The notes under the pieces were generated by a model. It saw nothing but the letters and a program-made list of their open reading frames with translations. It ran no database searches and was not told where the DNA came from. Positions 27,276 through 60,386 of a DNA stretch of 64,000 bases are shown piece by piece. Source of the DNA: Leuctra nigra (Eukaryota > Arthropoda > Insecta > Plecoptera > Leuctridae); the NCBI GenBank assembly GCA_934045905.1, contig OW203762.1:43053411-43117410 (forward strand). The letters run 5' to 3'. The translations under genes were made by a program, and so were the position numbers. The first letter of the stretch is position 1, and every line of letters starts with the position of its first letter.

Positions 27276-27326
27276 CTGAAATGAAGTAACATATTCTTAT
27301 ATTTTGTTTTGAATTGCACAGATCAT

Positions 27327-27726: not shown

Positions 27727-27820
27727 GATTCTATAACTCCATTGCGACCGCTTAGCAATTATTTCAATGTTAATCCTTATGGAAGAAATTGCTAAGCGGT
27801 CGCAATGGAGTTATAGAATC
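27727..27820. mobile_element. Palindromic element, 94 bp
   Basis: GATTCTATAACTCCATTGCG and onward to CTTAGCAATT is an exact inverted repeat of the right arm. A related half-site (ATTCTATAACTGCAAAGCGG) is at 25374. A second copy is at 63415-63508. Confidence 0.85.
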
Positions 27821-33000: not shown

Positions 33001-33200
33001 NNNNNNNNNNNNNNNNNNNNNNNNNNNNNNNNNNNNNNNNNNNNNNNNNNNNNNNNNNNNNNNNNNNNNNNNNNNNNNNNNNNNNNNNNNNNNNNNNNNN
33101 NNNNNNNNNNNNNNNNNNNNNNNNNNNNNNNNNNNNNNNNNNNNNNNNNNNNNNNNNNNNNNNNNNNNNNNNNNNNNNNNNNNNNNNNNNNNNNNNNNNN
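33001..33200. other. Assembly gap of exactly 200 N
   Basis: The gap is a round 200 bases, which is a conventional placeholder for a join of unknown length. Open frames that cross it have no meaning. Confidence 0.99.
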
Positions 33201-35206: not shown

Positions 35207-35312
35207 CAGGGCTCGAAATTAGGATGGCGAGTAGATACGTCACCGGGCGAGAGATTTCTTTTGGTCACTCGCCCATAGGGCGAGTAACTAAAATTTTAAA
35301 TTTCGAACCCTG
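35207..35312. mobile_element. hAT MITE, 106 bp, copy 2
   Basis: Same element and same CATTGCGG target repeats as at 3879-3984. Confidence 0.9.
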
Positions 35313-35857
35313 CATTGCGGTTGTTTGTGGGGAGGGGGGCACACACTCTATACCGTGATCTGCAGGTGTCAGTTTAGGACAGTTTATAAATGTGAAGATC
35401 TCTCTAAATTTCGTTTCAGATGCAAGAAAATATATTCCAAAAACACTGAAAAATGCTTCTATGATCATCCTATTTTACAAAAAAATCCCAGCGAAGTGGT
35501 TGGGGAGTCTTGCCTCCCCAAACCTCCCGCGGGTAGTGTTTGTCACAAAATCTTGTCTTCCCACCCACAATTTTCGTCTTAGAACCGCACCTCTGAATGT
35601 TATACAAAAGTTCGTACCTAAAACGAACATTTGACGTTCACATTCCATGCATAAAAATGTGATTATTTTTAAAAGTTTGATCCCCGACACTGCCTCTCGC
35701 ACATACTACATATGTACATATACACACATTTAATTTTATTTAAGGGAATCTTACAAATAGATACACTGACCTTCAACTACCCAAGTGTCTTTTGCACACT
35801 GGACACAACAACAAGATACACATAAATGATATTGATTGGGTATTCAAATACAGACTA

Positions 35858-36175
35858 AAGTTCGTTCACTGTAAGAATAATGATCCGCAATGGCGGCCGT
35901 GTACTACTGTAGTCTAGCGAAGGTATACCTACACATGTAAATATCAATATAATAATCAAAAAATATGTATAATACGACTGTAGATAAAAATAAATCAATT
36001 TTATTGAATTTTCTAATATTTCTTCTATTAAAAATTGTGTATTTGACATAATTTATACAATTTCAATAATACAAAAAAGAAAGTCTTGTTATTGACACGG
36101 CAGTGTTCATATGAACGATGTGAACGACCAATGAAGGACGAAAACGACAGAAATATTCTAACAGTGAACGAACTT
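35858..36175 (+). mobile_element. Tc1/mariner-like MITE, 318 bp, copy 2
   Basis: Duplicate of 4530-4847 in the second presenilin intron. Confidence 0.9.
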
Positions 36176-36262
36176 TACACTCATTGCTGCTGCAGTCTCA
36201 GTGGTCTTATCAATTAAAGTATTCACTTGTTGTAATGCTATTTTCACTTCACTCTTTTGTAG

Positions 36263-37515
36263 CTACCTTCATGTACAGCTACGTCAGTGTGGCAAGTGGA
36301 GATGAATCGGAAGCTGCTGCAAGTAGTTCTCCTCGTCCTCGGCAGCCTCAGGACAGTGGAGGTAAAACTAAATTTGTAATTTCTTTACTTTCGTGTCTTA
36401 TAGAGTTAAGAGATGTACTGAGAGACTGCCATTACCATGTATGGATTCTAAAAACTCACTCGGGTCTCCCGGTAGTTCTTGAACTTGAAATATTTCTTAC
36501 TCAGTAATTCATTACATCATGAGTTAAATTAGTTGCATAATGTATACATCTTTTATGTTACAGAAGATCCAGAGAGCGGCTTCTCCAGTGATTGGGAGGC
36601 AACACGTGAGGAGCGCTCAAATCGTCGGCGCGAGGAATTAAACCGTGCTGCATTAAGTGGAGACAACCAAGCACCAGCAGCACGGCAGCACCAGACCGAG
36701 TACAGGGAGCTTGAGGAGGAGGAACGTGGTGTTAAGCTTGGACTGGGAGATTTCATCTTCTATAGCGTGCTTGTTGGGAAAGCTTCCTCGTATGGAGATT
36801 GGAACACCACTCTCGCATGCTTTGTCGCCATTCTAATTGTGAGTAAGCCTAATACTAGGAACGTTTGATTATTGGACGTGAGGAATGTTGAGAATGTCGT
36901 GATATTATTAAATTCAAATTACATCTTCTGGCGGAAATACACAAAAGAATGATTTGTTTATAAAACAAAAAATCTGTTTGTCACGTTTTGTGTGATTGGA
37001 GTGAATGTTCTGTCAATAGCTATAGAGATTCACTACCAGAGAGATGCATCTTAATGGCAGAAAGAGGATGCTCGGCACATATTCTAGGTAGTTCTGCACT
37101 TGCTCAGCCGCCAATATATTCTCATCCCTCTGTTATCATGTCAATAACATTGCAAGGCAGGGATGTGGATGTCACTTTTGTACCAACTGAAAGTACACAC
37201 TAAACTAGGAAAACGCTCGGTGTAACGCGTTGATAAGCGAGCACCAGTATGTGCAACACTTTGAATCAAAATTACCTAAAAACACTGCAATAATCCACTC
37301 AATTTGAAATTGGTACATTAGCTCATGGTTCCTACATTAATGTTACCTTATATTTTCAGGGCCTGTGCCTCACGCTTCTGCTTTTGGCCATTTTGAAGAA
37401 AGCTTTACCTGCTCTGCCGATCTCAATCACATTTGGACTTATATTTTACTTCGCAACACGAGAGATTGTAAAACCTTTTGCTGATTCACTAGCCAGTGAG
37501 CAAGTGTTCATATGA
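36263..37515 (+). CDS. Psn: Presenilin, second copy, last three exons only (36263-36361, 36564-36838, 37360-37515)
   Basis: These exons repeat those at 4935-6187 at an offset of 31,328 bp, with the same splice sites, GLGD motif, PAL motif and stop codon. The two exons carrying TM6 and the first catalytic Asp are absent because this copy starts just after the N gap, inside the preceding intron. No start or promoter is visible, so on this assembly the copy cannot encode an active protease alone. It is most simply the other allele of the same gene, placed in tandem by the assembly, rather than a second locus. Confidence 0.93.
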
Positions 37516-39070
37516 ATATGAAACTTGATTTCTCTACTTGGTAAGTCAGTTCTTGATTATCATAATTATTAAATGGATGAATACGTATTAATTTTACTTT
37601 TTATAAGTTAATCTATGTACACTTGGCCAAACAAAAATTGGTCGTTCAATAAATCTGATAGGCTGATGAATGTAAGATCGCACCATCAGAAGTCAGTCTA
37701 AGCGATCTCATTGTCTCACTCTAGTATGTAGGTGACCGCACATTTCAATAATAATAACAAGCTTTGATTGGTTATGGGACATGACCAGCAGTCATTCAAA
37801 TTTGTTCAACGATCAATTTATGTTTTGCCGAGTGTACCTAAATAAGGCATGTAAGCGTTGGAAAGTTTGTCATATTTAATATCATGTTTATTTTATAATA
37901 TTACTATTAGATAATAATGATATTTGGTATATATTCCTTCTTCGTATTTAATTAATCTACCTTATTGTGTGATATTTAATTAGCATTCCCTTTCTTTCTA
38001 TGTATTAAGCGTAGTGGTACATACTGATACGCTCGTAAAAAATTGTAAGGGAACAGTTAAATAAATTTAGTGTAAATTCGTACAAAGATCCATTTCATGG
38101 TGTAAAATATGTACCTATCATTGTTTTTATTTATTTTTTCTAAATGGTTGGTTTGTTAACAAAAATAATGTTTGCTAAGGAATAGGAAGTGTTTTGTACT
38201 GTTACAATGTAGTATACTACTTTCTACCTACTACCAATTAACAACTATCATTGAAACTAGATAGCACATACATAGTCCACAACCATATGCAGTCCCAATT
38301 AGCACATTTGGCATATTTATAGGTACTACAAAGTACTTCATATACTTTGGCAGGAACACCTGTGACCATTTAAATTCAAATTCATTTCAACTTAAAAGAA
38401 AGTAAAATCAGAAAGGAAATGTACGTTAAAGTTTTAAAATATATCAAACAATTTGTTTTAGATGACAACAAATTTGTACCTATATAATTAATATAGGTGT
38501 TAATAATTTTGAAAACGTAAAATGTTATTTGGTTCCCCTTTGATATGAATTGCCTTTTATACTAGCTACCTACATAATTGTATATTGATGTGCACATAAC
38601 TCACTTGGAACTTTTTACTTCTAAAGAAGTCAATTCTAAGTTTAGCTCCATATTTTCTGTTTCCACATGTCATAACCACCACCTTATGCATATTTATTTT
38701 TTGTCAAACAAATTGCCCTATATACCTTATATGAGTACTTAAATAAAATAAATACAAATATTAAATAATATGTAGGGGCTTTGCTTATTTAAGGATACTA
38801 CAAAAGTAGTAGGCACTTTTGGCCAACAATCATATGTGGAGCCAATCTTCATGTATTCTCCCTCATCACATTGTGCCAATCCGTTCTCAAGTAATCACAT
38901 TGGGCTAATCGGTTAAGTTTTTACTGTGCAATCTTCCGCTCATTTTATATTAAATTTGCACTGGAACAAAATGCATTAGTTCAATATTAGTAATTCATAC
39001 AAATTATATAAAAAATAAAAATCAATATCATTTAGTTCATCATAGTTATCCGATGAATAATATTACCTAC

Positions 39071-42000
39071 CTGAAAGTCTTCCATGAGAGTTAATATGCG
39101 AGAAGTTTCAAGTTCGTTTCCGATTGATCGTCGTCGTCTTCCAGCTGCTGTTATTGGTGATGATTGAACAACGGTCATATATGAGTTGTTGTTGTTTGCA
39201 CCCAGACTTTGTATGAGTTGCTGCGTACAAAAGGAGAAGATTATGCCTTGAACAATTCAATTTAATAAAATCAAGGACCCGAACCGGTAAACCCATAATT
39301 TTGAAGCGGAAACGAACCTTCATAATCTATTAATTTTTAGGTTCCTTCTTTTAATAAAAAAAATATCGTCGTTGAAGTGGCAATACCGCGTAAGTCACTT
39401 TTGACAGATTGTGCAGGAGGCACTTAAAATGGATTTGTTTTAATTTTAATAGCACTTCTAAGATTTTAATGTTGTCAAAATTAAAGAAATTATGTTTAGA
39501 AACAGATTCTACATTAATTGTCACTTTAAAATCGCACACCAATTATAAACACGTAATATAAAATCATACGCGGTTATCACTGTTTTTTTTCTATAGTTAC
39601 GCGGTATTAAGTCATTTCCACAGCATCCAAAAGCTCATATTCTGTAAATGACGAATTTAGCTGTGACATGATAATGAATATAATAATTTAATTTAATCCA
39701 TTCATCTGTAACATGTCTAACAAAATAATTATTATAGTGGCAAACTACATGCTAAAGTTACACAGAATACCACGTAAGTGACAGGTTTTAACAAGTGTCA
39801 GGCAAATAATACCGCGAATAGAAACCTCAATTTTGCGGCAATGATAATGACAGAAATATATCTTATTGCTTTAATAAAATATTGTTAAGATGAAGTTTAA
39901 ATAAATAAGAATGTTTTATGAATAGTACCTGCAACAACACGTAATATACAAGAAAAATGGGGAGCTAGCATGGCTTAGCTTGTCAAGCGGCCATCTTGGA
40001 ACTAACATTACAAGTATAGGGAGATACGCGGTATTACCCGACGCAAGTCGGATACGTGGTGTGTAATTAGCCTTTTATAGCGTGCTTATTGGCACCAACA
40101 GACTAGAACCACTAGAAACAAGTGCCAATAGTATACGTGGATACGAATCAACCAAAAACGATTTTTGCTGAAATTTCGACTTGCGCGGTATTGCCACTTC
40201 AACGACCAGAGCTGGGTAGTAACGTAACGAAAGTAACGCGTTACTTTTTTGTAACTTTCACAGTAACGCGTTCCTGCTAAAATAGAAGTAACTTAGTAAA
40301 GTGGAAAGTTCCTTTTTGTTGTGGAACTTTCACATTTATAAAAGTTCCTTTTGCAGTTACTTTTAGAGCAGAATGTACCTTCCCTCAACATTCAAAACTA
40401 CACCATTTCCGCCCTCAAATATGTACCTGATTTTCTCTGATAAGGAATTTTAGGCCACCTGCACAAAACCGCATTCCAATCACGCCGTTCATGCTTAGTG
40501 CGTCATCAGTTCGCCCTCTCACTTGCACTTGACCAACCCTGCCGTGGCATGGGGGAGGGGGTAGAATTAGATGCAAGACTTCTTACTGGGAGGAATTTCG
40601 TTGAAAATTTTGTTTTCCACAGAGAAAAATTACAGCCTGAATTTGTGTTTTAGCAAATTGGCTGCATTCCGGAAATAAAATGGTCAAGTAACTTTCAAAG
40701 TAACTTTTCATTGAAAAGGAACTTCCAGTTCCTCTGATTAGTTGAGGAACTTTAACTTTAACTAGTTCCTTTTTTCGGAAAGTAACGTAACTTTAACGCG
40801 TTCCTATTTTTTTGGTAACTTACCCAGCTCTGTCAACGACGATATACTACATAATTTAATTTTTAACACTTTGATGATATTATTCACAAAGTTCTAAAAA
40901 GATTTTTTTTTGGATTAACAATCTCATTAATAATTTTGGTAGACATTTTTAATTCTAAATAATGCTTCATTTTCAAAAGCTGCTTGAAGAGTTTTCAATT
41001 TTTGAATCTGACTGTCCTGCGATGAGAACTGCTTTGCTGACAATATACCGGGTGGCGCAAAAAAATCTCCCCGATTAAGAGGTCACTATAACGAAACTAT
41101 TATAGTAGATAGAATTCTGAAATTGGATCACGTAGTAGAAAACATACCAAAATTTAATATATATTATAGTTTCAAACATATTCTTTTACCTAATAGGAAA
41201 TAGTTCATTTGAAAAACAGATTAAACCAGACGAAATTAACGTGTTTTGATGAGTTGATTTGGAGTTACTTTGTAGGAATTAAGCTGGGTTCCCATACTTC
41301 GCTTTCCTTTCGCATTCGGTTCGCTTTCGCGTCGCGAAGTTTGTAGTCGTTTCCATAATTTCTGTTTCGCGTATCCATGGATACGCGAAACATAAATAGT
41401 ATTCTGCCAATAGTTAAAAACAAAATGACAAATAATAATCAGATAATAAGCATGAACCGCAAGAAAATGCAGAAAAAGTGAAAATTGAAAGTTGAAACGT
41501 CAAAACATATGTTTATTAATCGAATATCGAATATAAGCTCGAGGTCGACCGGAAATGGAGATTCGATATATCGCATCACTTCCGGATTTCGCGCGTTTCG
41601 GTTTCGTCGAAGTTGAAGTTGGTCTAACATTTTTGCATTTCGGAGACGAAATTAAACATGGACGATTTTCTGTGTTAAAAGGTAGCCATTTTGCGAAAGC
41701 GAACCGAATGCGAAACGAAAGCGAAGTATGGGAACCCAGCTTTAGGGGAATTTATGTTTATTTATGAATTTCTTAATTTATGTTTCATAAATCTATTTTG
41801 AATTTGTGCGAATTTGCTTGAATTTATTAAGTGAGTAGGTATATGTGTGAATTTATGTAACTTTCGTATAATGCAGTGGTTAACTTGGGGGAGGACGAGG
41901 GCGGACGCGTCCCCTCACTCTTTTTTCAGGGTGGACGCCGTCCGCCCACTTATTTTTCATAGAAGTAATAATTGGCTTAAAATTGTGTACAAATCGCGTA

Positions 42001-44801
42001 GAAAGGCATGAAATTTGGTCCTGAAATTCAAAATTTTCCCAGGGCTATGTGCTCCGAACCCGCATTGTATTGGGGGTCTTCCCCCCAAACCCCGCATTGT
42101 TTTCCTAAGCAAATACGGTTCTCTAACAATAGCCAAGCGTTTGCCCACTTACTATTTTACAAAGTAATACTGGTATAATGACATTAAGGGCCGGTTTCAC
42201 CAAGATTCTAAACCCGGGTTAGAGGCGGTAAACCTGGTTTAGGGGCCTTTAAACCAGGTTTACCGCCTCTAACCCAGGTTTAGAATCTTGGTGAAATGCA
42301 GCCTAAGTGGAGGTAAAACATTCCAATTCATCGTTGGAAATTCAGCCACAATAACATTTCCTTCCATATCTCTTCTTGAAACCACGTCTCAATAAGATAC
42401 ATACATGCTTTACTAAGGCCCGGTTGTACCAAGTCCCGATAAAGTTAGCGGTAGGATTTATCGCCTGAAACCATGGCAACAGCCAATGAAACAGCCATCT
42501 AGACTGCTAAAGTCCACTTTAGGCTAAAGTGAACTTTATCTTACTTATCGCCTATCGGGACTTGGTACAACCGGGCCTAAATGGAGTAATTTTTATGTCA
42601 AATTATGATCAACGCAAACTTAATTATGTACAAAACAGGCGACTCTTTTTAACAAGCTTCTAGTTCTATTTAAACTCAAATGCGCGCTATTTAAACACTG
42701 GTATAAACCATTTTTCAGCGTCTTAATTCAAATGCATGTAACTTTTCAAATGACTCAAATATTTCTGAAAATTGCACATATTAAGTTTTTTATATTTGTT
42801 CTATACTAACATGTGAAAGTATTAGCCATTTATCTTATAAAGTTTTGATGTATGTAGTGATCTCTCAAACGGGGGTTTTTTTTTGCTGCACATATGATGC
42901 TCGGGCAAAATGAATATTTATGCTATTTGGGAAATGTGCACTGAAATTTTGCAAATTCTTTATTTATTTCACCATTATTTGGATTTAACCTGTAATTTAT
43001 TTTTAATCACAGTTGGTAATTATCAACCTATTATTTATATTACAAAAAATAGTTTTTTGGATATTTGTATCTACAGATAGTCTTTCCGTGGCATTTCAGC
43101 ATTTATTTTCCATGATGCATAATTTTAATAAATTAAATTATTGTCAATTGTCAAAAGACGGATTTTTTTTTAAAGTGACACAGCATTGACCAATCACAGA
43201 TAATCTTCAAAAAATCCTGTAAAATGCTGCAACCCATTAGTAGGTACATCTAAAATACTGAACTGCAAGGCTTTACAGCATCTGTGGCTCAGCAGATAAA
43301 TACGGAAGCCAGGCACTTCAACTTCCCCTCAGGGCACCAGGGTCTGAAAAGGTTGAGATATAAATATTTCAACGGATATTGTGCCAACACTGCTTACTCA
43401 AAAGCATCTTGTGCCTTGACAAAGGTATAACAACATATGCAAATAATCGATAATTACATGAAATCAGGGACCCGATAATTTCGGAACCAGAACCGGAACC
43501 ATTATACTTTTTTCCCAAAGAACCGGAACCCGAACCTTTATAATCAATTAGGTTCTTAAAGGTTCTTTAAGGTTCCTTCTTTTAATAAAAAATCATGTAT
43601 ATCACTTGGATATAATATTATTCACAAAGTTGTATAAAGTTTATTTTTTGATAAAATTTCCAAAATGTATTTTTTGTAGAAATTTTTAATTCTTGATAAG
43701 AAATAATAATTCTTCATTATGCAAACGCTGCTCGAGTTTTCAATTTTTTGAAACTGACTATTGCGATGAGAACTGTATTGCCGACAATTTGAATATGATA
43801 GCTCAGGAAAAATGAATGTTTACGTTGTCTTATGGAGAAAATTGCAGCCGCTCTACTGTCTCCTCTGATATTTACTCTGCGCACCATCCTGTGAATTTTA
43901 TACAGACACTGCCTACAACGGTGCTTGCATTCATAGGAAAATCCAAATCCAATAATTCCAGTAAATTACATAGGTAATACTGATGTTATATAATATAGTT
44001 TGATTAAATTTTTTAGAACCGGAACCGGAAAATCATAAAGGTTCGGGTCCCTGCATGAAATTAATTGAATACTTATTTACAACTGTGTCACTTCCTCATT
44101 TCAACGAGATAATCACAATTTTGAGAATGGTGGTTGAGAATTAATTCCCATCTATCCTCAATTATTACTCTTTCGTGAAATTAACTCGCCTGTACTAGTT
44201 TGATGAGAAATACTGCAAACACGAGAATTGAGATTGACATAAGTGCACTCTCCAATGATGGGTAGCCCATTTTGGCTGTTCTTGTTTGTCTTCGCCCAGG
44301 AATCCAAATATTCTCCATTCTTCTTTCTAAGCAGTAGGAGATTGAAGAATTAATTGAAGACACTAATTTTAAGTGAAAGCTCATAATATTTTTAAAATAA
44401 CCCACTTATTTGATGTAGAATTGAATTCTGGAGTCCTTGAAGGAATTCTAGTTTGCCTCGTATTGTGGTAGGATTTTCCAATGATAATGACTTGTGAGTT
44501 TGGTGCAACATTTTCATTGGGAAATCAGATTCACTTTGGTTATGCAATTTTATTAAACTGGGATTTTCCCACTGATATCCAATAGAAGGATCGGTAACAT
44601 CTTCCGTGTCATTCTTTGTATTCAGCAGAATTGTTTTGTGGTTGGCGGCATTTAGAGTGACGTAGTGAGTAGACATTTGGTCAATGCGTTTGGCATCCAT
44701 TGGCTTTGTAGTAGAAGGCGATTTGGTCTTTGGTTTGATAACCGAAACTTCTACCCAATCTGCATTTGATGTACCAACCAAAGCAATCCACATGAGAATA
44801 C
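39071..44801 (-). CDS. Unidentified single-pass membrane protein, second copy (44801-44406, 44326-44190, 39220-39071)
   Basis: This repeats the gene at 7743-13473 with the same exon ends, including the GC donor next to 44190. The protein sequence of all three exons looks identical. The membrane segment, the Asn run and the GRRRRS site are kept. As with presenilin, it is more likely an allele than a paralogue. Confidence 0.58.
39366..40842 (+). mobile_element. TA-flanked element with nested hAT (40207-40832), copy 2
   Basis: Duplicate of 8038-9514, including the nested hAT and its TCAACGAC repeats. Confidence 0.85.
41282..41741. mobile_element. PIF/Harbinger-like MITE, 460 bp, copy 2
   Basis: Duplicate of 9954-10413 with the same TTA flanks. 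Confidence 0.85.
42188..42577. mobile_element. Two PIF/Harbinger-like MITEs, copy 2 (42188-42303 and 42417-42577)
   Basis: Duplicates of 10860-10975 and 11089-11249 with the same TAA flanks. Between them lies the C-to-T difference at 42406. Confidence 0.85.
43465..44053. mobile_element. hAT non-autonomous element, 589 bp, copy 2
   Basis: Duplicate of 12137-12725 with the same CATGAAAT repeats. Confidence 0.92.
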
Positions 44802-47219
44802 CTGGAAAAAAGGGATATCAATTTTGAATTTTACTTCAGTTTCAAAGTAGGTACACAAAATTCAATAGTAAATAGGAACACATTTCTGGGTTCTGCCGAT
44901 TCCAAAAATGTTTTGGACAAACTAGCTACAAGTTACAACTTAATAAACATTATTGTGGTCATCTTGCAACCTTTGTCTTCTTACATTAAAATCAAAGGCA
45001 CAGACCTTTTGTAACCTAATTCTTAGCTTGCGCGAACTTCTTTTGTTTTATATCAGCATATAGGCCTCCGAAATAGCCATAGGCGCGCCACTATCACGAC
45101 CATTAGCGCTTACCTGGTGGATGAATTCGAATGAATTGTGAGGGTGAAGTATTGAAAATGATATGGCCACCGTGTTAAATTGTAGAAATATAAATAAAGA
45201 AACAGGGTTCCCAGGCGGCCCATAAAACCCCTAAAACCCATTTTTTCAGCATTTCAATTTATATGCACTATAATTCCCACTTTTCTAGGTCTGACCCATA
45301 AAATGAAGAGGAATCTATTCCACATATTGTATTTTTCAATTAATTACCAAATAAATTGCCGAAAACTGTCCAAAACGCATAGAAATGGTCCAAAAATACT
45401 TCTAAATTTTAAAAAATTTCCGGGCCTGTGCGGCCCGGACCCGCTTGACATTTGAGGCTTCATGTGTAATGTTTCAAGTGCAATTTAGCGAGTTTTCCCA
45501 AAGTATTGTCTCGTATAAACTAGAGGGTTGCCGCCCATTCCAGATATTTCGGGATTGTTGTCCTTTTCCCAGAATTAGAATAATCATTTCGGGACAGCAA
45601 TAGTCGGAATTCTGAATTTTAAACTTCAAAACGCAATATTTATTATCCATTATTTTAAATCTCCCGTGTCATATCGCTTGCACAGGATTGCCAGGTGATT
45701 AATTTAAGATATTTAAATATTTGAGAAGAAATATGGAAACTAATATATTTAAACTTAATTTTCGCAATAACCTGGTAGTTTTTGGTGATAAAAATACTAA
45801 ATAGCTTAAATTTTATAAAAATGGCTTTAATTCATTCTTGAAATTCAAAATTTTCCCGGGCCTGCCCAGCCCGGACCCGCGTGTTGTTGAGAGACCCTCC
45901 CCCAGGACCCAATTGATGCCATAAGCAGGGTGTACCCCGAAAATCACACCTTTTGGCATCACGAAAAGTATTGACTAGTCCTCTGTTCCGGATTGCATGC
46001 ATTGAAAAGTGGCAACCCTAGTCTAAATGTGAATTAATAAATTATAATAATTATTATGCATATTATTGAAATGCACTTTTTGGGCTCGACAATGCTAGGA
46101 AGGGGAATTGTACTTTGAAGAATAGCGCAAGTGGGAATGGGCAAAATAGGTAAAGAACCGAATAATCTGCAATTTTAAGATAAGGAAAAATTGGTTTCAG
46201 TTAGTAAAGACTAATGATTTTTAACATTTCATACCTTGGCTGTCCGTCACAATATTATGCATATTTCAAGATTTTTTTTAGTGCAGTGCGTTATATTCCC
46301 ACAAATAAGTGATACGTGATGGAGCCACTTCTGGCAAGATGGCTACTATCAGGTCCACATATTAATTTGTTTGTTTTTACATTTCGTGTTTCCATAAAGC
46401 AGTGAAAAAACAAAAAACAAATTAAATTGATATTTAGCTATAAATTTACTTTCTTGGCCATAACAAACAACTATATCAAATATTTGTATTTATATTTATG
46501 CAAATGCGCCCTTGATAGCCGCCATTTACCTAGTACCACAAAATCCACCAGAGGTCAGTTGTGTTCCTTATTTTCTCGAATAGCTTTCAGCTGATCAAAA
46601 TGTGTATTCAATAAATGCAATATAATGCATCTAGGCATGATCTAGGTAATGCATTTTATCAGAAATGTACCCTTTAAAACCCATAAAATCCCATTGAAGG
46701 ACCCATATTTTTAAGCAAAATTGCCCATAAATTTTTGAGACCTGGCTGGGAACCCTGAAGAAATAAGAATATTGGCTTGTGCTGAAGTAAAACTGACTGA
46801 AGTTAGTTTATTACTGATTTTGTTTTAAAATATTTATAATGCCCGATTATGCCACAGCCCACTGGATTCATCAAAGTTTACATAAACAAAACCGATATTT
46901 TACGAAGCAATCGAGACAGGAAGGATTCCAAATATTCCTCTCTCTGATTGGTTGGAGTAGCGCATGCTCAGAATGATTTGGCGCGATTTTTCAAATGCTT
47001 TTTAATAACAATTAGGCTCGTAATAACCAAAGTTAAATTGTGCTGGATTAAATTCAACTGTTTCACTCATTTTGAGGTATCTGATTGGCTTAGTCCAATT
47101 TAGTCCAATATTTAGTTAATCCGGCTCAGATTAACTTTGGTTATACCGGCCCTTACTACGTTAGCCTTTAAATATAAATTTTTACATGTGGGAAAAATAT
47201 GAAATTGGTAAGTTTAAGA

Positions 47220-48075
47220 CAACATTTATTAGTGGTCATATAATAGCACCTCAAAATTAAAATTAAATTCAAGATTATAACACACAATAACGGTCAATTC
47301 AACTTCACTTTGTTCACAAGAATCATGAAGTATCTTCCGACTTAAATGGCCATGTCCAAATAAAAATTTACGATTATATACCTAATTACAAGATGATATT
47401 ATAGTACATCAAAATTTAAATTAAATTCAAGAAAATTATCTCAAATGTCTTCTGATTTAAATTGCCATGTCCATAGAAAAATTACATCAGTTTAAGTTAC
47501 ATAGGTATACCTAAATAGTAAATATTACAAGATAATATTATAGCACATCAAAATTAAAATTAAATACAAGAAAATTATCTCAAATGTCTTCTGATTTAAA
47601 TTGCCATGTCCATAGAAAAATTACATCAGTTTAAGTTACATAGGTATACCTAAATAGTAAATATTACAAGATGATATTATAGCACATCAAAATTAAAATT
47701 AAATACAAGAAAATTATCTCAAATGTCTTCTGATTTAAATTGCCATGTCCATAGAAGTTACATAGGTATACCTAAATAGTAAATATTACAAGATGATATT
47801 ATAGCACATCAAAATTAAAATTAAATACAAGAAAATTATCTCAAATGTCTTCTGATTTAAATTGCCATGTCCATAGAAAAATTACATCAGTTTAAGTTAC
47901 ATAGGTATACCTAAATAGTAAATACTACAAGATGATATTATAGCACATCAAAATTAAAATTAAATACAAGAAAATTATCTCAAATGTCTTCTGATTTAAA
48001 TGGCCATGTCCATAGAAGAATTACATCAGTTAATAAGTTACGTATAGTCTACCTAATTACAAGATGATATTATAG
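47220..48075. repeat. 139-bp tandem array inside the MULE
   Basis: The phrase TCTGATTTAAATTGCCATG recurs near 47451, 47590, 47729, 47851 and 47990. Spacing is 139 bp apart from one 122-bp step, where a 17-bp piece is missing. Degenerate units flank it on both sides (near 47338 and 48060). It is non-coding and lies downstream of the transposase gene. Subterminal arrays in other MULEs may bind transposase; that role is only inferred here. Confidence 0.9.
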
Positions 48076-48201
48076 CACCTCAAAATGTAAATTAAATACA
48101 AGACCGTTTTCCAAAACTAATAATGAGATTCAATCATGGTTTTTATACAAATTTACCATCACATTATCATCATCAACTAATTTACCATCACGTAGATATT
48201 G

Positions 48202-48632
48202 TTAGTAGAGATGATCAAAACTTGAATGAATATTTAACACTTCATGATTCTTGTCATTAAGTCCTTGAATAATGTTGATGTGCTGCTTTGAAGAAGGTTT
48301 GCAAAATGTAACACTACTGTCTTTCACAGAACGCTTCCTCTTCGTAGAATAAAAGCGAGTTTGTGGCTCCACATTTTTATTTGCAGGTTCCTTATTTCCA
48401 CCATCATCTAAGTCGACATCGTCCAATGAACTTCTGCGTTTGATGTCTTTAGTAATGTCAATTAACTGGTCAAGTCTTTTAATGACTACATTCGAATCTT
48501 CTTCCGTAAACTCCAAGGAGAAGACTTGTCCCATCAGAAGATTTAACTTTTCCATCATCAATTTCTTCGTGTCTGCAGTTTGATGAAGTATCGCATTGTG
48601 CGCTTGTACAGCGGAGAGCAGATCAGCAGTGG
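48202..48632 (-). pseudogene. Probable C-terminal part of the MULE transposase, out of frame
   Basis: Reading on from the ALHK codons but shifted by one base gives TTADLLSAVQAHNAILHQTA and then a Leu-rich MMEKLNLLMGQVFSLEF. A lysine-rich, nuclear-signal-like tail (STKRKRSVKDSS) follows, ending at 48202. There is no ATG before 48555, and the segment overlaps the end of the upstream frame. I read this as the natural C-terminus separated by a frameshift or deletion. A small independent ORF is possible but less likely. Confidence 0.55.
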
Positions 48633-50491
48633 TTTATGGAGTGCCTCTAAATACATGTTTGTATTAATCCCAGAACCTATACGAAAGCAGTACGCCCACA
48701 TTTCTGATCGAGTAGAATAGTGTTTTCGGAAGTATTCACCAAACTCCTTGGTCGATTCATCATCAGTTAGTTCTTGAATTAACTGTTCTTGAGAGATTGC
48801 AAACTGATTAGGATTAGTTTCTTGCAAAAGTACACGTACGGCCTTGTAGATAAGAGCTTTCATTTCATTACTACCCGTAATTTTCTCTCTGATACTTTTT
48901 CGCCAATTTTTATCGACGTGCCAAGTGCACAAAAGCCTCTGCTTTGATGGACCCATCACAATTTCCCAGGCATTGTAGAACGAAGGGTCATCGTCTGACA
49001 TGAATACATCGGTTTCAATATTTCCTACTCTATCACGGACGGTTTTAAAAAATAAGTTCCATGAGAGCGTATCCTTCCTATTACTTAGGCAAAAAGCCCC
49101 AGGACAGCCAGATCCATACTCGTCCACGGTCAGAAGTGTCGTCAACTCAAAGTCGTACTGGTTTGTACCATGAGTACTATCTACACATATTTTCTTTTTG
49201 CCAAACTGTTCTAACATTTTTCTTTGAAATGACGTCAATATTACCAAAAAGAAATCTTTCTTCTCTAACACCCCAGAGGGGTCCTCCACTCCCTGAGGCT
49301 TGTACAGAGCAACAGGGTTCTCTTCGACGCCAAGCTTGTTCATACTCTCAACCCACAAGTGAACACTCGTTGCATCATCGGCGTGTTGTCGGCCTACGTG
49401 GAGATTAAAGTCTCTCCTGATGTTTCGCAGATGGTTCTTGGTGACAAAACTCTTCGTAGTAATCTGGTCCACAGCTTCATCGCGGATGTCATCCATAATT
49501 CTTTCCAATGTCACTCCATCGGCTATTTTTCCTGTGGATAGAAATTTTGTTTTATTGGTTGGATAACTAAATACCTACTACATTTTTTTTAATAAAATCT
49601 GACTATCAGAACACAATAGTAGTTACATTTAACGACTATATTCATATTTTGTTACTAGTGAAAGTGCAATTTACCTGCTAGTTGTGTTCGTTCCTCATAT
49701 GTGAGTGACAGGCGGCTGAAGCTTCTGGAGTGGTTGCAGTGAGTTTTCCAGTAAATCACTTCGACGTCACATTCAGACTCAGTAACAACCATAGAAGAAG
49801 GACATGTCCTTTCAATTTTATTCGAACCTTGACTTTTCATCCTTTTTTTCCCAGTTGCTTTTGTAGAAAAACTGCCTGACCGATGACAGTTGTAATAGTA
49901 TTTCTTCCGATTTCCAAGTACTTTCACTCCTGTCATCAAAACGAACTGTGTGCGTGTTTCTCTTTCGGTCGTTGCCTTCCATAATTGAAATTCTGTAACA
50001 ATCAAAACATAACCAAAATGTTACGATATTGAAGTGTGTTTGCTAACTTTAATTTTCAATCAGCATAAAATATGAATTGATGACATTTCTATTAGTGAGT
50101 CCTACAAGAGCCACTTACCTTTCAGTGAGTTAAATTTCAATTCTTCCTTTTCCGAGTTGATATCGTGAACATCGCTCAAATGGTTCCGCAAATGTTTGGT
50201 GTCGGCAAGAACAAAGCAACATTCAGAACATTTTATTTTGCTCATCACCTTCCCGGTAGAAGCAAGTTTGCGAGGAGACGTCTTCGGGCAAGTGGAATGC
50301 TTCTTGCGTAGATGTTTATTTAGGTTAAACTTTTTCTGAAAACTTGACTCGCACAAGTGGCATGAAAAGGACTTCAAAGTACCAGGAGATCCTTGTTTGA
50401 GTTGAGGCACTATGTTGTGCACATTGCGCAAATGTTTGTAGAGATTGTAAGAATTTGACAGTGACTTATCACATAAATAGCACGATTCCAT
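48558..50491 (-). CDS. MULE transposase with zinc fingers (exons 50491-50119, 49992-49675, 49531-48558)
   Basis: The product would cut and insert the surrounding transposon. Three exons join in phase to about 554 residues; introns are 126 and 143 bp with GT-AG ends. Exon 1 starts at an ATG and encodes three C2H2 fingers (CYLCDKS...HLRNVH, CHLCESS...HLRKKH, CSECCFV...HLSDVH). Exon 2 has a WRKY/GCM1 or FLYWCH-like finger: YYYNCHRSG, KSQGSNKI, CPSS, THCNH. Exon 3 has the MULE catalytic core: first Asp in ICVDSTHGTNQY, second in FMSDDDPSFYNAW, then CTWHVDKNW (the C-x2-H typical of MULEs) and the likely Glu in NTNMYLEALHK. After ALHK, near 48632, the frame runs only to a stop at 48558, while the next frame carries on as protein-like sequence. 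The copy therefore looks frameshifted or internally deleted just after the catalytic residues. Confidence 0.88.
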
Positions 50492-51260
50492 GACTAAAGA
50501 TACCTATAGTATTACTTTACTTATCACAATACCTACTACCTAGCACTATTCCATGACCACGAACGTCATAAAAACACACAAAAAGTCACAAAAGAAGTCA
50601 TAACCTCAAATCTTACACCTACTTACACCTTGCAATTTCTTCTAAGTCCCAGAATATCATAGTGCGCATGCGCTACTCCAACCAATCAGAGAGAGGAATG
50701 ATAGGGCACTAGCCAAACTATCTCCCGCTAGGGTGCTGCCATCGGTTTTGTGACAAGTGTGAAGTAAGCTGTTCGTGCCACTCAAAATTAAAACTCGCGA
50801 AACTTTATTTTGACATGCGTAGAAGATGTACTCACTGTTTAGATACATAGATTTTTTACTCTAGTATAATTAAATGTGTAAAAATAAGAAGATAGTGCAA
50901 TATCTAAAGCAAATTCTATTTCAATCAGAAGCGACATTCTCTCAATTGTTTTAATTGGAAGTTACAAAATTCCATTAGCAGTGAGTCATTTCAAGAGAGC
51001 ACTGGAAACAAAAATAATTCTGTGAGCTGTCATTATATGATCAAAATATCATTATTACACTATCATTTCTAATAATTATCCACTATTTCGTTAAATAACC
51101 AAATATCAACATTAATTATTATAATATAACATAAAAAACGGACTGTGGGGTAAGAAATGCGTTGATTTGAAAAGCACAGCCTCGACGCTAGCGCCAAAGT
51201 GGCCGATCCCGTCGTCCTAGCTTGGCATCGCCCCATCGCTTCGTGATATTTTCGTGTCAC

Positions 51261-52119
51261 TTCAACCATAGCCAACTGACATATCGTGGATGAAAACACC
51301 ACATCAGCCTTCTCCAAAGAACCCATTTCCAATGGTAAAGCAGGATCCCGAGGGCGCCACCTACCGTCCTTTTGTTGGGTGGGCAAAATTTAGACGTTGA
51401 CAAATTATTTTGTATACGTTCATTGCCACTTTTACCAAAGTGCTTTTACTGTCTTGTCTTAACCTTACCTTATAAAACAATCCACACTTGCTTTTGACGG
51501 GCGCAAACTCATAATTGCAGCTTAATATTGATGATACTTGCATTAATTGCATATCAACAATGTTTCATAACAGATAATTTAAACTAAACACATTATTTAC
51601 ACAGAGATTACTCTTCAAAAATAACTACAAAAACAAATCGCTTCTCTGATCACGGCACACTTGAAACGTGATTTTCTAGCTGTGCGTTTTGTTTCCATCA
51701 TCAACTGTCAAAAAGTTCTGACAGTCAAAGTGAATAAATAAAGGATTACAAACGTTTGTAGACAAAAACATATGTTATTAAATATATTATTTTTATTTAT
51801 TATATGTATACAACTGGGTATGTACAGGTGCATCTATAACTTGATTTATTTGCTTATAATGCTAGATTTTCTCTCCCAAACAAATCATTCCACTTGCCGT
51901 CCATTGCATTGATTATTATTATTCATACATAAGATGAAACTTCAGGACCAATCAACTTTGATGATGCCATCTGTTGGTAAAAAACGGCGACGTCGGTACC
52001 TAGCGCTATTTGCGAAAAAAGCCAAACACTAATACAAAAATTGAATCCTAGAAAATACGCGATTGGAGAAGGCTGATGTGGTGTTTTCATCCACGAAATG
52101 TCAGTTGGCTATGCTTCAA
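51261..52119. repeat. 57-bp inverted repeat enclosing 745 bp, copy 2
   Basis: Duplicate of 15582-16440; the left arm is 51261-51317 and the right arm 52063-52119. Confidence 0.8.
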
Positions 52120-52718
52120 CACTTGACTTTGCATTCAAGTCGAACATTTTATTTTCTCTGTCTAAGTAACTTCATTTGGGAATAAATACGTCGAAGGATT
52201 AGCAGCATTGCGAAATGAATTCAAGCATACCACAACGCAGCAAACAATTTTACTTAGGAACAAGCTAATATTACGTATTTCTTTATTCATATTTCTGATT
52301 TTTACATGTTGCCATAGCGTTACAAGGCAATGTTCCCTATCAAAAATTTCGTCATTCCACGCACATATGGCGCGTCAGTCTACTTCGGAGGCGTATATCA
52401 GCAATGCAAAATTATTGAATTTTCCACCTGAGGACGGACATTACGTTGGCACATTGATGGGTCAGATTATAACTTTATTGAGGTAAATCAATGTATTTTT
52501 GTAATGTGAGTGGTTCCTCTTCGTACTAAAGATATCTCCGGAGCCTATACAATTTCCCAGGTAGCCATTAACTATAAAATATCGTCAAAAAAGCAGAGAA
52601 TCACAGCTATTCTGCGTGCCATTAAGATGGCGGCAGGCAACAATGAGATGACATCACATGCAACCTATGAATAGTTGAATCTGTACGCATTTGATCAGAA
52701 TACTTTGCTGACATTTTT

Positions 52719-54878
52719 TATTTTAAGATTCCACGTGACCTTATATAGAAAATTGGCAAAACTGTTACACTCAAAGTTGTAAGAACATTTTTTTCTCATT
52801 AAAAAAATGATTCTACAGTTCATGTGACCATTTTCACCTCAAAAAATTTCCTTTTCAAAAATGTTTGCCAATATATTGCATTTTTTATGGGATTTAAATA
52901 AGTCCCACAATTATCAGTCTACAGACTTGCATTTGGTCTAGACAAATATTTGTCTTCATAATGTATAAGTGAAGAAAAAACACTGCCTATTTTTCAATAA
53001 CTTTTTTTTTTATCTGGCCACAGTCCCCAATAATAAATAATGACTTCATCGATGAAAAATCCAGGAAGTAAAGATTATGTTTGTAGACCGATTGTCAGGG
53101 TTGGGTCATTACGCGTAGAATATTAATTTTCTACATACACGTAGAGTAACACGTAGAATATGTAGAATATGTAGAATATTATTGTAGAATATTTTTTTTA
53201 AGTGCCAGTGGTAAAATTTGGAAAGTTAGCATAAACCAAAATATATTATTTTACTTTTTTAGTTGCCCTATTTTCAACTTATCTTTAGAGCGGTTGAGTT
53301 CAAATCTTTTCTATTTATTCTACTCATATTCTATCTTGTATGGAACGGCCACATCCTTAATTTTGGCAAATTAGAGAGCAATCCTACCTCGTAATTTTAA
53401 TAAGCCCATTCATAGCACACTTCCCCTATATCTACAATAGGGAACACACGATGATTTGAATATATTGCAGGAAAAGCCATTAGCAAGATTGTAAAAAATT
53501 GAAATTAAAAAAACATTTCAAAATAATTTCTAATTGAAGAAAACCATGTAGAATTGAATGTAATTTCTACGTGTGTGCATACTGCATATTCTTCATGTTT
53601 GGATAATTGAATCTAGATTACAGCATCCAGCATTACAGCAAGCAACTACCAAAGTCCGAATGAGATGATTGAGTATCACTTTGCGTTTTTATGTTAATAT
53701 TAAATTTAGAAGTAAGAAATTGTAGTTGGTCCTCTCGTATCAACAATTTGGTAGAGTTGTTATGTACTAGTAGTGATGCCCAGCGGGAATATTCCCAGAT
53801 TCCCGGGAATATTCCCGAGCAAATTTGGGGAATATTCCCCAAATCGGGAATTTACTTTTTCATTATAAATTAAAATGATAAATGTTCTTATTTTGTGGTA
53901 TGTCATTACTCATTACCTTTTAGTATTCTCTTTTTTGTCACTAATTTTCTTGATATCTTATGACAGGGGTCGGTAACCTTTTTTGGTGACGGAGCCAATT
54001 TCCGAAAAATTTATAAATTAGATAATAATGCGAGCCACAGCATGCAATCAATCATAAAATAATACACCAAAAATAATCAATTGAATTACTAGTTTATTCT
54101 GCTATTTGAACGAAGCCCCCCCCCCCCCCCCTCTTGATGTTGCCCCGCAGGGCGTTTTTAAAGAATTTCAACAATTTCTAAGACGTGATTCTGGGACTCG
54201 AAAATGAACAACTCAATGAAACAACATTCTAATTGTTTCCCCGCAGGGCGTTGTTTTGAATTTTCATCTCATAACATAAACATGCTTTAATAATGATTTC
54301 TCTTATAAATTGTTTACTCATCCCTGTAGTATATTCCCAATAAATTCCCGGTAATATTACATCACTATGTACTAGGTACTCATAGTAAAGTAAAATGCTG
54401 TTATATTGAAAACAAATCAATAGAATGATCATTATAATCCAAATCAATGTTTTTCTTAAAAATAATATTCTACGTGTAGAATATGTCATCTACATCAATA
54501 TTCTACATTACATATTCTACGGTAGAATATACGCGTAGAATACCCATTTTCTACGCGGAATATTCTACTGACCCAACCCTGCCGATTGTAATAAAATTAA
54601 AAATACATACAGAAGTAAAAAGATAGGCAGTGTTGTTTTCTTTGCCTTATTCATAAGGAAGACAATGAGACCACATGCTTGTTTGTAGAGTGTTAATTGC
54701 AGGACTTATTTAAATCCCATTGAAACAGCATTAGTATATCAGCAAAAAAAATTGAGGTGAAAATGGTCACGTGAGTTGTAGAATCACTTATAATGAGGAA
54801 TAATCATTCTCACAATTTTAGGTGCAGTAGTTTGGCCAATTCCTATTTCATATTTATGGTCACGTGGTATCACTAGAA
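52719..54878. mobile_element. Nested transposon stack, copy 2 (hATs at 53096-54581 and 53771-54367)
   Basis: Duplicate of 17040-19190 with the same CCGATTGT and TGTACTAG repeats, plus one extra TAGAATATG unit near 53160. Confidence 0.88.
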
Positions 54879-54887
54879 TACCCTTAA

Positions 54888-55856
54888 AGGTGGGCTATCA
54901 CGGTTGAGCCCCATTTTTTTATTATTCAAAAAACATGATGACATTATGCATGCAATCACAGCGGCGAAAACTAGAGCTCTGTAGGATATTCCTAAACAAA
55001 GTTACAGCACAACGAAGACGGATAGGGGGTGAGAAACGCGTCATTCACACCCAACTCAGCCGCAAAAGCTGGTAAAGGTTGGGTGGGACCTACGTCACAA
55101 CAACCAGGTTTTTCAAACTTCGCGGGGCTCTGGCCCCTGAACCAAACATCGCATCGCGTTCGGGTTTTCGACATTCTACTTTTGGTTACAATATCTACAA
55201 TATTTTCGACTTGTTGACCATGACAGCCCACCTTTAACATGAGCAGGGCCAGTTGTTTATGGTTTCTACGATAAATGCGAAATGTTTAGAAACATGAATT
55301 TTCTTTCATATCTTTACGTTTCATACACTCCTGATTCCAAATATATGTATCTTTTTCTCGCGAATTTTCGCGAAATTTGTGTTTTGACGCGATATTGACG
55401 AATTCTCACGATTTAACGCGATTTTGTCCCAAACCTACGTGTTTTGCAACATTTTCCGATTCCGAGTATATATTTTACGAAAATGTCCTCGATCTGTGTC
55501 AAAAGTACCAAGAAATAGAAAGAACCACACTGTTTTCTTCGTAAGCCAGCTGTCAATGTCAGCCAAAGAGTGTATGGGGGTGCCAGCGGGTTGGCTGCTA
55601 AGCATGGAATGACGCATCTACATGACCTTGAATCGGGTTGCGCATGCGCACGCGCCGAGTCTCGCTAGTGAGGGGGGGTTGGTAATATTGCGACTCGCTC
55701 GCGCATCATATTTGACACTTTTTCTTACAAAAATCATTTTTTTCCCATTTCACCACCAATCGCAAAAATTAACATAATTATCACCACCAATTCACCACTT
55801 TCAGAATGTTGAAAACGAATTTTGGCTTTTTTTATCACCACAAACAACTGGCTCTG
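54888..55856. mobile_element. TTAA MITE (54888-55233) and adjacent hAT (55244-55856), copy 2
   Basis: Duplicates of 19200-19545 and 19556-20168 with the same target repeats. Confidence 0.88.
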
Positions 55857-57124
55857 AACATGAGGCTATAAACTAAACCGAGCCTCATTTATACCGAGGT
55901 GTAAAATCACTCTTATACCTAGCTCACACAACCATACCTCTCTAAAATGATTTTCTTACCAATCATGATGTGATGTTCTCAGCCACAAACATGGAACAGT
56001 GAGACGTGCTGTGTTGATAACAGTCATGTAATTATTACAGCTGTACATTGTCACACATCTATAATCTTCATGCGTTCATGAGAGCATGATGCGGAACTGT
56101 AGGTGGAACTAAAGATAATTGCTAATTTCCTTGTCTTGACACATCTTATCACAACAATTTGTTGAAGTACCTACCTCCTTCTTGTAAAAATATTGTACTA
56201 TGAACTAGAAACAATTTTAATTCTTCTTGTTATAAAGTAACATTTATTTTATAAAACATATCTAGCTAGCCTATAGATTGAGTAGGTAGGTATCTATACA
56301 GAATGTTTTTTTTTAAGTGCATAAAATAAGATGGGTATTATAACAAATAAACAGAAAACAAAAAGTTAATTGTCAATATTTTAAGGTTTTATAAAATAAT
56401 GTTAAGAATTTGTTTTGCTTTCGCATTGCTGATGTCAGATGTGATATCAGGTCACACCAGTTCTCTGGGCTGAAATTGTTTTTACTATAGACCTTCGAGC
56501 ACGGCAGAGAGATATATATAGATATACACTTACACTATAGCAGAGGTATTCTCACTCCACCAATGAACGTGAAGCCTTTTCGACATGAGAAATATTGGAG
56601 TATCCCGGCATCGTTAGCGCATATATCAGCACTAGTGGAAAAAATATGAACTAACTGCTAAATTTATCCATTGAGCCGTCGTTGCATTTATATGCTATGC
56701 ACGATCTTCTTTTGTTTTATATCAGATATTTACAATTAAACTATAAAATGAACTATAAAACCATTAAATACCGTCAAATAACAGCTATTCTACGTGCTAG
56801 CAGGCACATCAAGTGTAAACTATGAATTAGCGGTTGAGCCATCGTCAGAGATTGGTCATCAAGTAGTTCACTCTTCACGCTATAGACGTCGCTTAAATCA
56901 CCGGGGCCACCCAGATTTCCCCAATCACAGGGTCTAAAAAGGCTTCACTGCGGTCAATGTTATCAGTATAGGAGTGAGACAACCGTCTCTACTAGTATGA
57001 ATGTAGTAATGATGTCCATGAATCTTGCTTCGAGCATGGATGATGCATGACAAAAGGAATTTAAATTTAAAGGAATTTAACTTTAAATATGGAATATTTT
57101 TCCATACTTCCTAAATGTAATATT

Positions 57125-58407
57125 AAAACGCTCGGTGTAACGCGTTGATGAGCGAGCACCGGTCGGTGCAAATTCTCAACAGGAATTCCGTACCAAACGC
57201 ACAGAAACATATATGTCCTTATTGAATTGAAGTATGATCCACTCAATCAACATAAAAGTATCTGTTTTCTATTGAAACTTAAGAATAGCAATCTATGCAC
57301 TCTGCTGCATAGAGCAAGTCAGATTCAGTTGCAGTGGCAAAACATTCATTTTGATACGTCATTCTGACAGTTATTAAAACTGTCAATAAGTGCATACGTT
57401 CTTGACTGATTGGTCTGAAAAATGGTAAAAAAAACAAACAATGTTGGTCTTAATGACCATTCAAAATATGAGTTTGATCTGATTTATCGAAGACTATTTG
57501 ATAGGTCAATTCGGTGTGAGCTACAGGCCATTTTCATTTATCAACCAAGACAATCAATCAAAAATGATCCCAGAGACCTCATGGATTACATAAGTATGTG
57601 TGCAAAATTTCAGATCGATTGGTTGAGCTGTTTGACCTGGGCAGTGAACACACAAAAAAACACACAGAAAGTGCCATAAGAGTAACAAGGAGACGCTCGC
57701 TCAATAATACCTTTCAGACATGCGAACAAGATTTTAATGGCAAGTAATCAAAGGATTTTAGAAAAGTGAGGAATAAGTAGGGCACAAAATGTCCGTTGCA
57801 AACATAAGACCAAAATGGATAAAAATAAACAGCCCTGATTCGACCGTTAGGCGGTAAATAAATACTAATTACAAATTGATTAACTGAGAAAGTTGCACTT
57901 TTTATGAGTACAGTCACAGCCGGGCAACTCTCAGTTCTAGATGGGGTTTGTTATACTTCTTGAAACAAACTTTTTTGAGAATCTCAATGTAGTCTGCCAG
58001 CTTTGTGCAATTGAAAAGAAATTTTGTTTAGTCCAGGGGTTCTTAAACTTTCTACTCCACAGACCCCTTAAAATATATGTAGTCAAGTATTTATTGTAGT
58101 TCTAAGAGTTTAGTATGGGTTGTCAAAAGATTTCTGGAAAAAGTATGTAGGTAAGCCACGACACAATGGATCTCACTGTTATTCATCCAGGACTCTTACC
58201 TAATACCGCAAAACGTTGGTGCTACGATGGTGATGAGTTCAAGGTTGGTGCTACTACAGGTTATTAAGATAGGTAGCACCGTGCTATCATTTGGCAGTCT
58301 TGGAAAGTTGCAAAGAAAATCGTATTGTGCCGTGTCGTGTATTGTGACTGAAGATGTTGCATGTTCTTTGCTTGCTCTTCAACGCGTTACTACACGGAGC
58401 GTTTTCC
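57125..58407 (+). mobile_element. Shorter member of the TA-flanked family, copy 2
   Basis: Duplicate of 21437-22719. Confidence 0.75.
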
Positions 58408-58584
58408 TAGTATAAAATAAGAGTATAATTTTAAAATCAAATAAATGTAAAGTAAATATTTTGGCAAAATTTGAAGTTCCGTGCTTCCAAAATCGAATGT
58501 GTAGATGTCACAAATCAAAACTTTTCCTCTTTTTCACTTTTTACAATCCTTACTTTCCCTGTTCTTTTTCCATAGGTAGGTATG

Positions 58585-59597
58585 GCTTTGGAATTGTGTG
58601 TCGATCATCCCTATGCTTATACCTAGAGCCAGTTTTAAATGGTGATTTTATTTCTTAAAATTCGTTTTTAAAATCATCAATTTCGTTTTTTGTGTTTTTT
58701 CTGGAAGAGGGATTTCGCGATTTTGTGGTGATATTAAATTGGTTATAAAACACATTGTAATCCCCCAGAAACCATAATTTGATGAAAAACATGTACCTAT
58801 GCCACTGGAGGAGGGATTGGAATGGATTGGTCATGCACTATTAGCACTGAAATAGGCTTGTCTAGAATGGCGTCTTTAATGCTCTGTACTGTCTTTTCCC
58901 CAACCCACATTTTCTCTGTATAGATGGTACATAATATTTAAAACTTCATGACGCAAAATGTATATTTTGACAAGATATTTTCTTTCCCAATCCAACAATT
59001 TTCAGTGCAGTAATTGTTCCAAAATATCCTTCTGTGTAAGTAGACTATTGATGAATAGTTGCGACTGGTTGAGGGTGGAAGGGGGGTTGGGAAAACCGGT
59101 CGACCTTGAACAGATGGGGGCGCAAAACAAAGCAGCCTGGAGGCATCATCAACTGGTTAGACTGGTCTGGTTCACTTTGAGGGTGGGTAGCAAAGTGTCT
59201 GGCGAGGGGGAGGGGGTTGAGTGAGTAGCACATGGAAAGAAACTGGTTTCGTTTGTTGTTGTGTGACCTGTTAGGGGGATAAAAGCAGTAATTTTAATAG
59301 AAAACCTTTATTTCGTGGTCATTTCGCGGAAAATGTTAAATATCGCGATCAGGGTTGGATTTCGTTTTTTTTCGCGATGTAAAAATGGTAGATTTGGGAT
59401 CTATACACAATGAAATGGATTTTAGTAGAAGAAAATAGTGCAATCAGAACAATTCGCGAATTCGCGCATCACCATTTAAAACTGGCTCTACTTATACCAT
59501 CCCGCCATACAACGGAGATCGTACAGTGGTATACCAGCGCTCCGTTGTATGGCGGGATGGTATAAGCGTAGGGATGATCGACATACAATTCCAAAGC
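58585..59597. mobile_element. Palindromic MITE with hAT (58624-59490), copy 2
   Basis: Duplicate of 22897-23909 with the same CTTATACC repeats. Confidence 0.88.
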
Positions 59598-60386
59598 TGT
59601 ACACCCACCTCCAAGTGTTCGTACTGTCTTTCTCATAAGAGCACAATGTATAACACGGTAGGAACACTTTGAGTTGGGTGTACAACATGTCCCATTCCGA
59701 TTTTTTCAGACTAGTCTTCCTCTGCGTGAGGACCCTGCCCATTATTGTCCAAGGAGAGTGAGACAGGATGTTCCCTACATTTGGATTCTTGACTCCATCA
59801 TTGGATTATATTATGTAGATTTGGTATGATAAAAATACGTCATTATTGTCATAACAAATTAATTATTTTTATTGATGTGCGCTCTCAGTACATAATTAAT
59901 ATTTACTACCTTCATTCTTCAATAATTTATAATTGCTAATTATCTAAGAGAAGCACACTATGTTACAGTATTGTCATGCTTGGAGGGATAGGTTAAGTCA
60001 AATTGTAAATATTTTGAAATTGGCACACAAATAAAGTTATTAATACGTAATCCATCAATGGCTAAGCAAATGGTCATTACTCATATTAAACTTATGAGTT
60101 TTCTTATCACAATTATCAGTCACATCACTAGCTCTACATAGTACAATAGCAAAAGTAATTGAGGCTTTCATTTTATTAGATTGTACATTGTAATACATGT
60201 AAGTATTACATTATATTATTTTGGTGTGATTTCAAGTTATAGCAATGCTGTTGTGGATGGTTCAAAGATCACATAAATTGGCTAAGGAGCATTTCTATAA
60301 TAATGAATAATCTTCCAGTGCTGAGATCATTAGTTAAAATCCATTTAGGAAGAGTATTCTTTACAATACTGATTTTATTGCTAAAT

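Follow-up and report, generated by a model that had tools for sequence, protein, structure and literature searches.

Mutator-like elements (MULEs) generate target site duplications of 8-11 bp (PMC6446971), and a survey of 4,268 arthropod genomes places most of them at 2.5-5.0 kb, with terminal repeats of 13-1193 bp (PMC13359780); although MULE terminal inverted repeats are often long, some MULEs are described as having terminal repeats that are short or absent (PMC6446971; PMC13359780). Muta1 of Aedes aegypti has been grouped with Phantom (PMC6446971), and a MULE in the VGSC gene of Myzus persicae has closely similar copies elsewhere in that genome (PMC8201860). We describe a 4,343-bp element in Leuctra nigra (Plecoptera, Leuctridae), found in a stretch of 64,000 nucleotides (the window; contig OW203762.1 of assembly GCA_934045905.1, positions 43,053,411 to 43,117,410 of the forward strand), where it is present in one of two near-identical copies of a sequence and missing from the other. 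The evidence makes it likely that the two copies are allelic, that a MULE inserted on one haplotype, and that its movement was effected in trans.

Filled and empty sites in two near-identical copies

Copies 1 and 2 (Table 1) lie in direct orientation on one scaffold and, element aside, differ over 26.4 kb by two single-nucleotide polymorphisms (SNPs; C at 11078 in copy 1 and T at 42406 in copy 2; G at 23986 and T at 59674) and by one 9-bp tandem unit (near 17474 and 53153, respectively). At the matching site copy 1 has a single octamer GATATTTT, and in copy 2 the element is flanked by one at each end; the offset between the copies, 31,328 before the element and 35,679 after it, thus grows by 4,351, the sum of the 4,343-bp element and 8 bp. 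The empty site is bordered by C on each side and the element's end bases are A (left) and T (right); because the bordering bases differ from the end bases, the target duplication is exactly 8 bp, within the range given for the MULE superfamily. An earlier sequence-only reading had placed the empty and filled sites at these same positions, had derived the element's ends and target length to the base, and had equated the change in offset with element plus 8 bp, all of which holds. GATATTTT occurs eight times in the whole window, and the chance of an 8-bp match at two given places, calculated from base composition, is approximately 3e-5; given the matching empty site, chance explains the duplication poorly. 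The same exact duplication at both ends, together with that empty site, would be unexpected if the element were foreign to this place and had been introduced by an assembly misjoin, a reading to which the scaffold gap and contig ends nearby lend some colour but which we consider extremely improbable.

A presenilin gene lies on the plus strand in the left part of the window. Its exon at 120-356 (Pfam profile positions 112-184) precedes the start of copy 1, whereas its C-terminal exons at 5205-5537 (profile 282-367) and 5966-6184 (profile 367-407) lie inside copy 1, and both of these exons, when tested, recur unchanged in copy 2 (36533-36865 and 37294-37512). Because the former exon lies outside the overlap and the later exons inside it, copy 2 opens in mid-presenilin, like a contig end. 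The best named presenilin homologue among the 120 matches listed is from Timema bartmani (65%), with Papilio (65%), Daphnia (59%) and Limulus (57%) also listed, alongside fishes, mammals and molluscs; taken together with the relatives of the transposase, these matches by themselves point to an arthropod only as the likely host.

Ko et al. (PMC9516828) treat gaps between duplicate pairs on one scaffold as a primary feature of false duplication, along with halved read depth, linked reads that are discordant and k-mers at one-copy level. Here a run of 200 N, which the sequence-only reading does not mention, separates the two copies (Table 1). The leftmost SNP lies 9,205 bp to the right of the overlap start and the rightmost 9,014 bp to the left of the contig end at 33000, if the overlap extends that far (the window ends first); such distances may correspond to the arms of a haplotype bubble in a long-read assembly. 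Most likely, the apparent duplication consists of two overlapping contig ends, one per haplotype, which would make the filled and empty sites allelic: a single locus would be represented by both of its haplotypes, from the sequenced animal or from a pooled sample, left unmerged and joined by a scaffold gap. The empty site is thus present in the same window, as the sequence-only reading had it, but most likely by overlap of contig ends across the gap and not as part of a duplicated locus; heterozygosity, which that reading also proposed, is our best reading of the polymorphism. A real duplication in tandem of a segment of 26 kb or more, one paralogue of which received the element, would account for two copies in direct orientation on one scaffold; the start of copy 2 exactly at the gap, within presenilin, argues against this, and we regard it as very unlikely. 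The case clearly illustrates a probable false duplication made by assembly, one that could be taken for a duplicated segment or for a second presenilin tail. As the two presenilin 3' exons are doubled across the gap, they could be annotated as an extra gene.

Heterotype false duplications have been linked to relatively divergent haplotypes (Ko et al., PMC9516828). Unlike those, the copies described here are only two SNPs apart in 26 kb beside the insertion, which weighs against allelism and leaves room for a single haplotype with mosaicism, the insertion being present only in some cells, or in some individuals of a pooled sample. So small a separation, with just the two SNPs and the one 9-bp unit, speaks for such mosaicism; however, these are still extra differences that would not be expected from a one-generation event (although sequencing error could give them), and one of the SNPs is a C/T change at a CpG, which is typical of real mutation. 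On balance we assign mosaicism a very low probability.

With the copies read as alleles, two SNPs in 26.4 kb put the haplotype split at approximately 12,600 generations (Poisson range approximately 1,500-45,500) for an assumed rate of 3e-9 per site and generation, or at approximately 37,800 and 7,600 generations for assumed rates of 1e-9 and 5e-9, respectively; should the SNPs be errors, the split would be younger still. This estimate is an upper bound on the age of the event and not a date. The proposal in the sequence-only reading of a very young insertion is thus limited to an upper bound from the haplotypes, which does not tell insertion apart from precise excision. In the latter case a resident element would have been removed together with one copy of the duplication, leaving an identical empty site; the near-identical flanks fit this equally well, and in yeast approximately 90% of Muta1 revertants, at sites with 8- or 9-bp target duplications, were precise excisions (PMC5225508). 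Where there is just one filled site, however, insertion is the simpler initial event, and the literature passages cited here contain no report of precise germline MULE excision in animals, so that we consider excision unlikely. We prefer recent insertion without regarding it as the sole reading: on one haplotype a defective MULE with C2H2 fingers would have been cut and pasted into GATATTTT, with duplication of 8 bp.

Table 1. Positions in the window of the two copies, the element and its parts
Feature	Position	Strand	Basis or remark
Copy 1 (empty site)	1873..28312	+	base-by-base comparison
Empty target site in copy 1, single GATATTTT	15566..15573	.	
Gap of 200 N; next base is the start of copy 2	33001..33200	.	
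Copy 2 (filled site), ends with the window edge	33201..64000	+	base-by-base comparison
Left target site duplication GATATTTT	46894..46901	.	
Mutator-like element, 4,343 bp; transposase gene on minus strand	46902..51244	-	filled/empty comparison, Pfam MULE domain
Left terminal inverted repeat ACGAAGCAAT	46902..46911	+	9/10 match to right end
Left arm of 44-bp internal inverted repeat, with GATTGG and GCGCATGC	46934..46977	+	93% complementary
Minisatellite past transposase 3' end	47385..48103	.	139/122-bp period, 5.3 copies
C-terminal tail relic, other reading frame, past deletion of ~155 codons (putative SWIM-type region)	48205..48624	-	
Transposase exon 3, catalytic core	48558..49531	-	shares the frame of relatives as far as 48633; a stop comes after 24 further codons out of frame
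Transposase exon 2	49675..49992	-	GT/AG junctions, homologue match
Transposase exon 1, C2H2 zinc fingers	50119..50491	-	
Right arm of 44-bp internal inverted repeat	50656..50699	-	165 bp upstream of transposase ATG
Outer right-arm segment like 3009-3155	51055..51197	+	80% identity over 147 columns
Right terminal inverted repeat, ATCGCTTCGT on plus strand	51235..51244	-	
Right target site duplication GATATTTT	51245..51252	.	

A transposase gene with a deletion beyond its catalytic core

The element contains three exons with GT/AG junctions that, when spliced, give an open frame of 554 residues, and a MULE transposase domain was identified in exon 3 (PF10551; score 51.3 bits, cut-off 27.6; E=1.7e-13). 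Relatives of the protein number 122 at E<=0.001, of which 120 are listed; those among the listed relatives that bear an organism name are from insects and arachnids, apart from a single protein labelled uncultured Candidatus Thioglobus. A search of viral contigs for relatives gave 21 pattern matches, none of which was confirmed. Catalytic residues were assigned from an alignment of 26 rows, comprising exon 3 from the window and 25 of the 120 listed homologues, in which every row has the second D and the E and nearly every row the first D; these residues, at 118 (first D), 180 (second D) and 296 (E) of the exon-3 row, constitute a DDE triad.

The fold predicted for the transposase has a mean predicted local distance difference test (pLDDT) score of 81.4 and a predicted template modelling (pTM) score of 0.75. 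The best Foldseek match to its core is ISCth4 of the IS256 family (PDB 6xgx, 6xgw, 6xg8; E=3e-7), and all five chains at E<=0.001 in that search are ISCth4, whilst a search of solved structures by sequence alignment gave no match. MULE and IS256 catalytic domains are akin (PMC5225508). The identification as a MULE made in the sequence-only reading is accordingly supported by the Pfam domain, by ISCth4 as best fold match and by the 8-bp target duplication; on the other side, the ISCth4 match has a sequence identity of 8-12% and TM-scores that, when normalised to the model, reach only 0.37-0.45.

Beyond the third catalytic residue, approximately 155 residues have been deleted out of frame, and the tail resumes at 48624 in another frame than exon 3 (Table 1). 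The closest relative among the matches listed (P0001, jgi; 69% identity over 57% of the query) aligns over residues 2-302 and 458-591 only, with no match in between. A search confined to the 120 listed homologues showed that 39 of them match the tail piece at E<=1e-3. The deleted region includes a CxC..CxH motif that we take to be SWIM-type, and SWIM-type names are borne by two listed relatives, P0009 and P0053. The motif around the third catalytic residue is recognisable in 79 of the 120 homologues (the 41 without it were dropped), and CxC..CxH follows downstream in 65 of these 79; it is missing from 14, nine of which end within 100 residues. An intron in place of the deletion was considered and rejected, a tblastn search with P0001 residues 303-470 against the window recovering only 12 tail residues.

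Whilst an autonomous MULE would carry an intact transposase with a C-terminal SWIM-type region, the gene here has both the deletion and a frameshift, and the element, as judged from its sequence, is probably non-autonomous. Because its own transposase breaks off beyond the catalytic core, it was probably moved by that of another copy, an intact relative acting in trans, and because the present copy is broken a helper copy elsewhere may be presumed.

Terminal and internal repeats of the element

The terminal repeats follow the consensus ACGAAGC(A/G)AT, and the two ends match at 9 of the first 10 bp, 11 of the first 14 and 13 of the first 20. A match of at least 9/10 was reached by 24 of 198,723 random pairs of sequences from the window; in shuffling tests the local-alignment score of the ends was reached in 20 of 1000 cases for the first 20 bp, 39 of 1000 for the first 40 bp and 338 of 1000 for the first 110 bp. 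A terminal repeat beyond the first bases is therefore unsupported. The window contains no ACGAAGC...GCTTCGT pair spaced 40-12,000 bp apart other than the element's own. Given the ranges of the arthropod survey, the length of the element is ordinary but its terminal repeats are below the surveyed range.

Inside the element, the 44-bp inverted repeat is placed asymmetrically, 32 bp from the left end and 545 bp from the right, and immediately beyond the two arms the adjoining sequences show no match by eye. From the motifs in the arms, a CCAAT-type box and GCGCATGC, we presume that the right arm is a possible transposase promoter. The region at 3009-3155, which resembles an outer segment of the right arm (Table 1), lies between presenilin exons; as read from this similarity, either the presenilin intron may keep a relic of the right end of the element family, or the right arm may have acquired other DNA. 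A minisatellite follows the transposase gene; one is also mentioned beyond the transposase open reading frame (ORF) in aphid Phantom elements (PMC6446971).

These features raise the possibility, which we consider speculative and unlikely, that the element is a mobile deletion derivative with a rebuilt right end, in which the 44-bp repeat would represent the old inner ends, the 545 bp outside the right arm would be partly common to the presenilin intron, and only the 10-bp terminus would be left to serve as terminal repeat. A bolder version would have the SWIM-less protein still functional, or the event somatic. If the element did move recently with rebuilt ends, MULE transposase would require very little symmetric terminal sequence.

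Elsewhere in the window, a 596-residue ORF on the minus strand (28586-30376) resembles a non-LTR retrotransposon reverse transcriptase (RVT_1; best relative 67% identity, jgi). Two further ORFs on that strand (13064-13489 and 12853-13077) resemble, by eye, exons of a gene for a small secreted or membrane protein and gave no Pfam match; their 5' side faces the empty site at a distance of approximately 2 kb. A dispersed repeat of approximately 30-40 bp occurs at 569-608, 2897-2935, 5876-5914, 21438-21469 and 26861-26898. Scanning the window with Rfam (gathering threshold) and with ARAGORN gave no matches.

Comparison with known Mutator-like elements

Filled and empty sites on near-identical haplotypes provide exact ends, the target length and a presence/absence marker for a MULE of arthropod type, and the pair points to MULE movement since the haplotypes parted. 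The ISCth4 transposase resembles the predicted catalytic core in fold but is of bacterial origin. It is not known to carry the zinc fingers of the eukaryotic proteins.

Among arthropod MULEs, the element resembles the Spectre clade (PMC6446971) in combining a C2H2 finger with a MULE transposase, in its 8-bp target duplication and in its arthropod host. The only complete Spectre described in the cited passages, however, possesses an unbroken transposase gene and terminal repeats that match perfectly over 74 bp, whereas the present element has terminal repeats of 10 bp, against approximately 74-76 bp for Spectre, and a broken gene. On this comparison by clade description, we therefore describe the element as Spectre-like but do not assign it to Spectre. 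In the Ghost clade the first and second D are separated by 84 residues plus gaps, as compared to 60-76 in other clades (PMC13359780); the spacing of 62 positions found here speaks against Ghost, but that paper counts gapped alignment columns. Similarly, the E of the present element follows its second D at a distance of 116 positions, slightly less than the 120-135 of eight of the twelve clades, for which gaps are counted (PMC13359780).

Muta1 (PMC5225508) is likewise an insect MULE with target duplications of 8-9 bp, a DDE triad and non-autonomous derivatives in its family set, but carries a FLYWCH finger in place of C2H2, and terminal repeats exceed 100 bp in 12 of 14 Muta families, unlike the 10-bp ends observed here. 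The MULE in the VGSC gene of Myzus persicae (PMC8201860) is, like the present one, a heterozygous insertion polymorphism in an insect; that insertion disrupts coding sequence and was tested in clones, whereas this one lies outside recognisable exons and is known from sequence alone. Heterozygous MULE insertions and C2H2-bearing arthropod MULEs are thus already known, and what is odd in the Leuctra nigra element is its 10-bp ends and its asymmetric internal inverted repeat.

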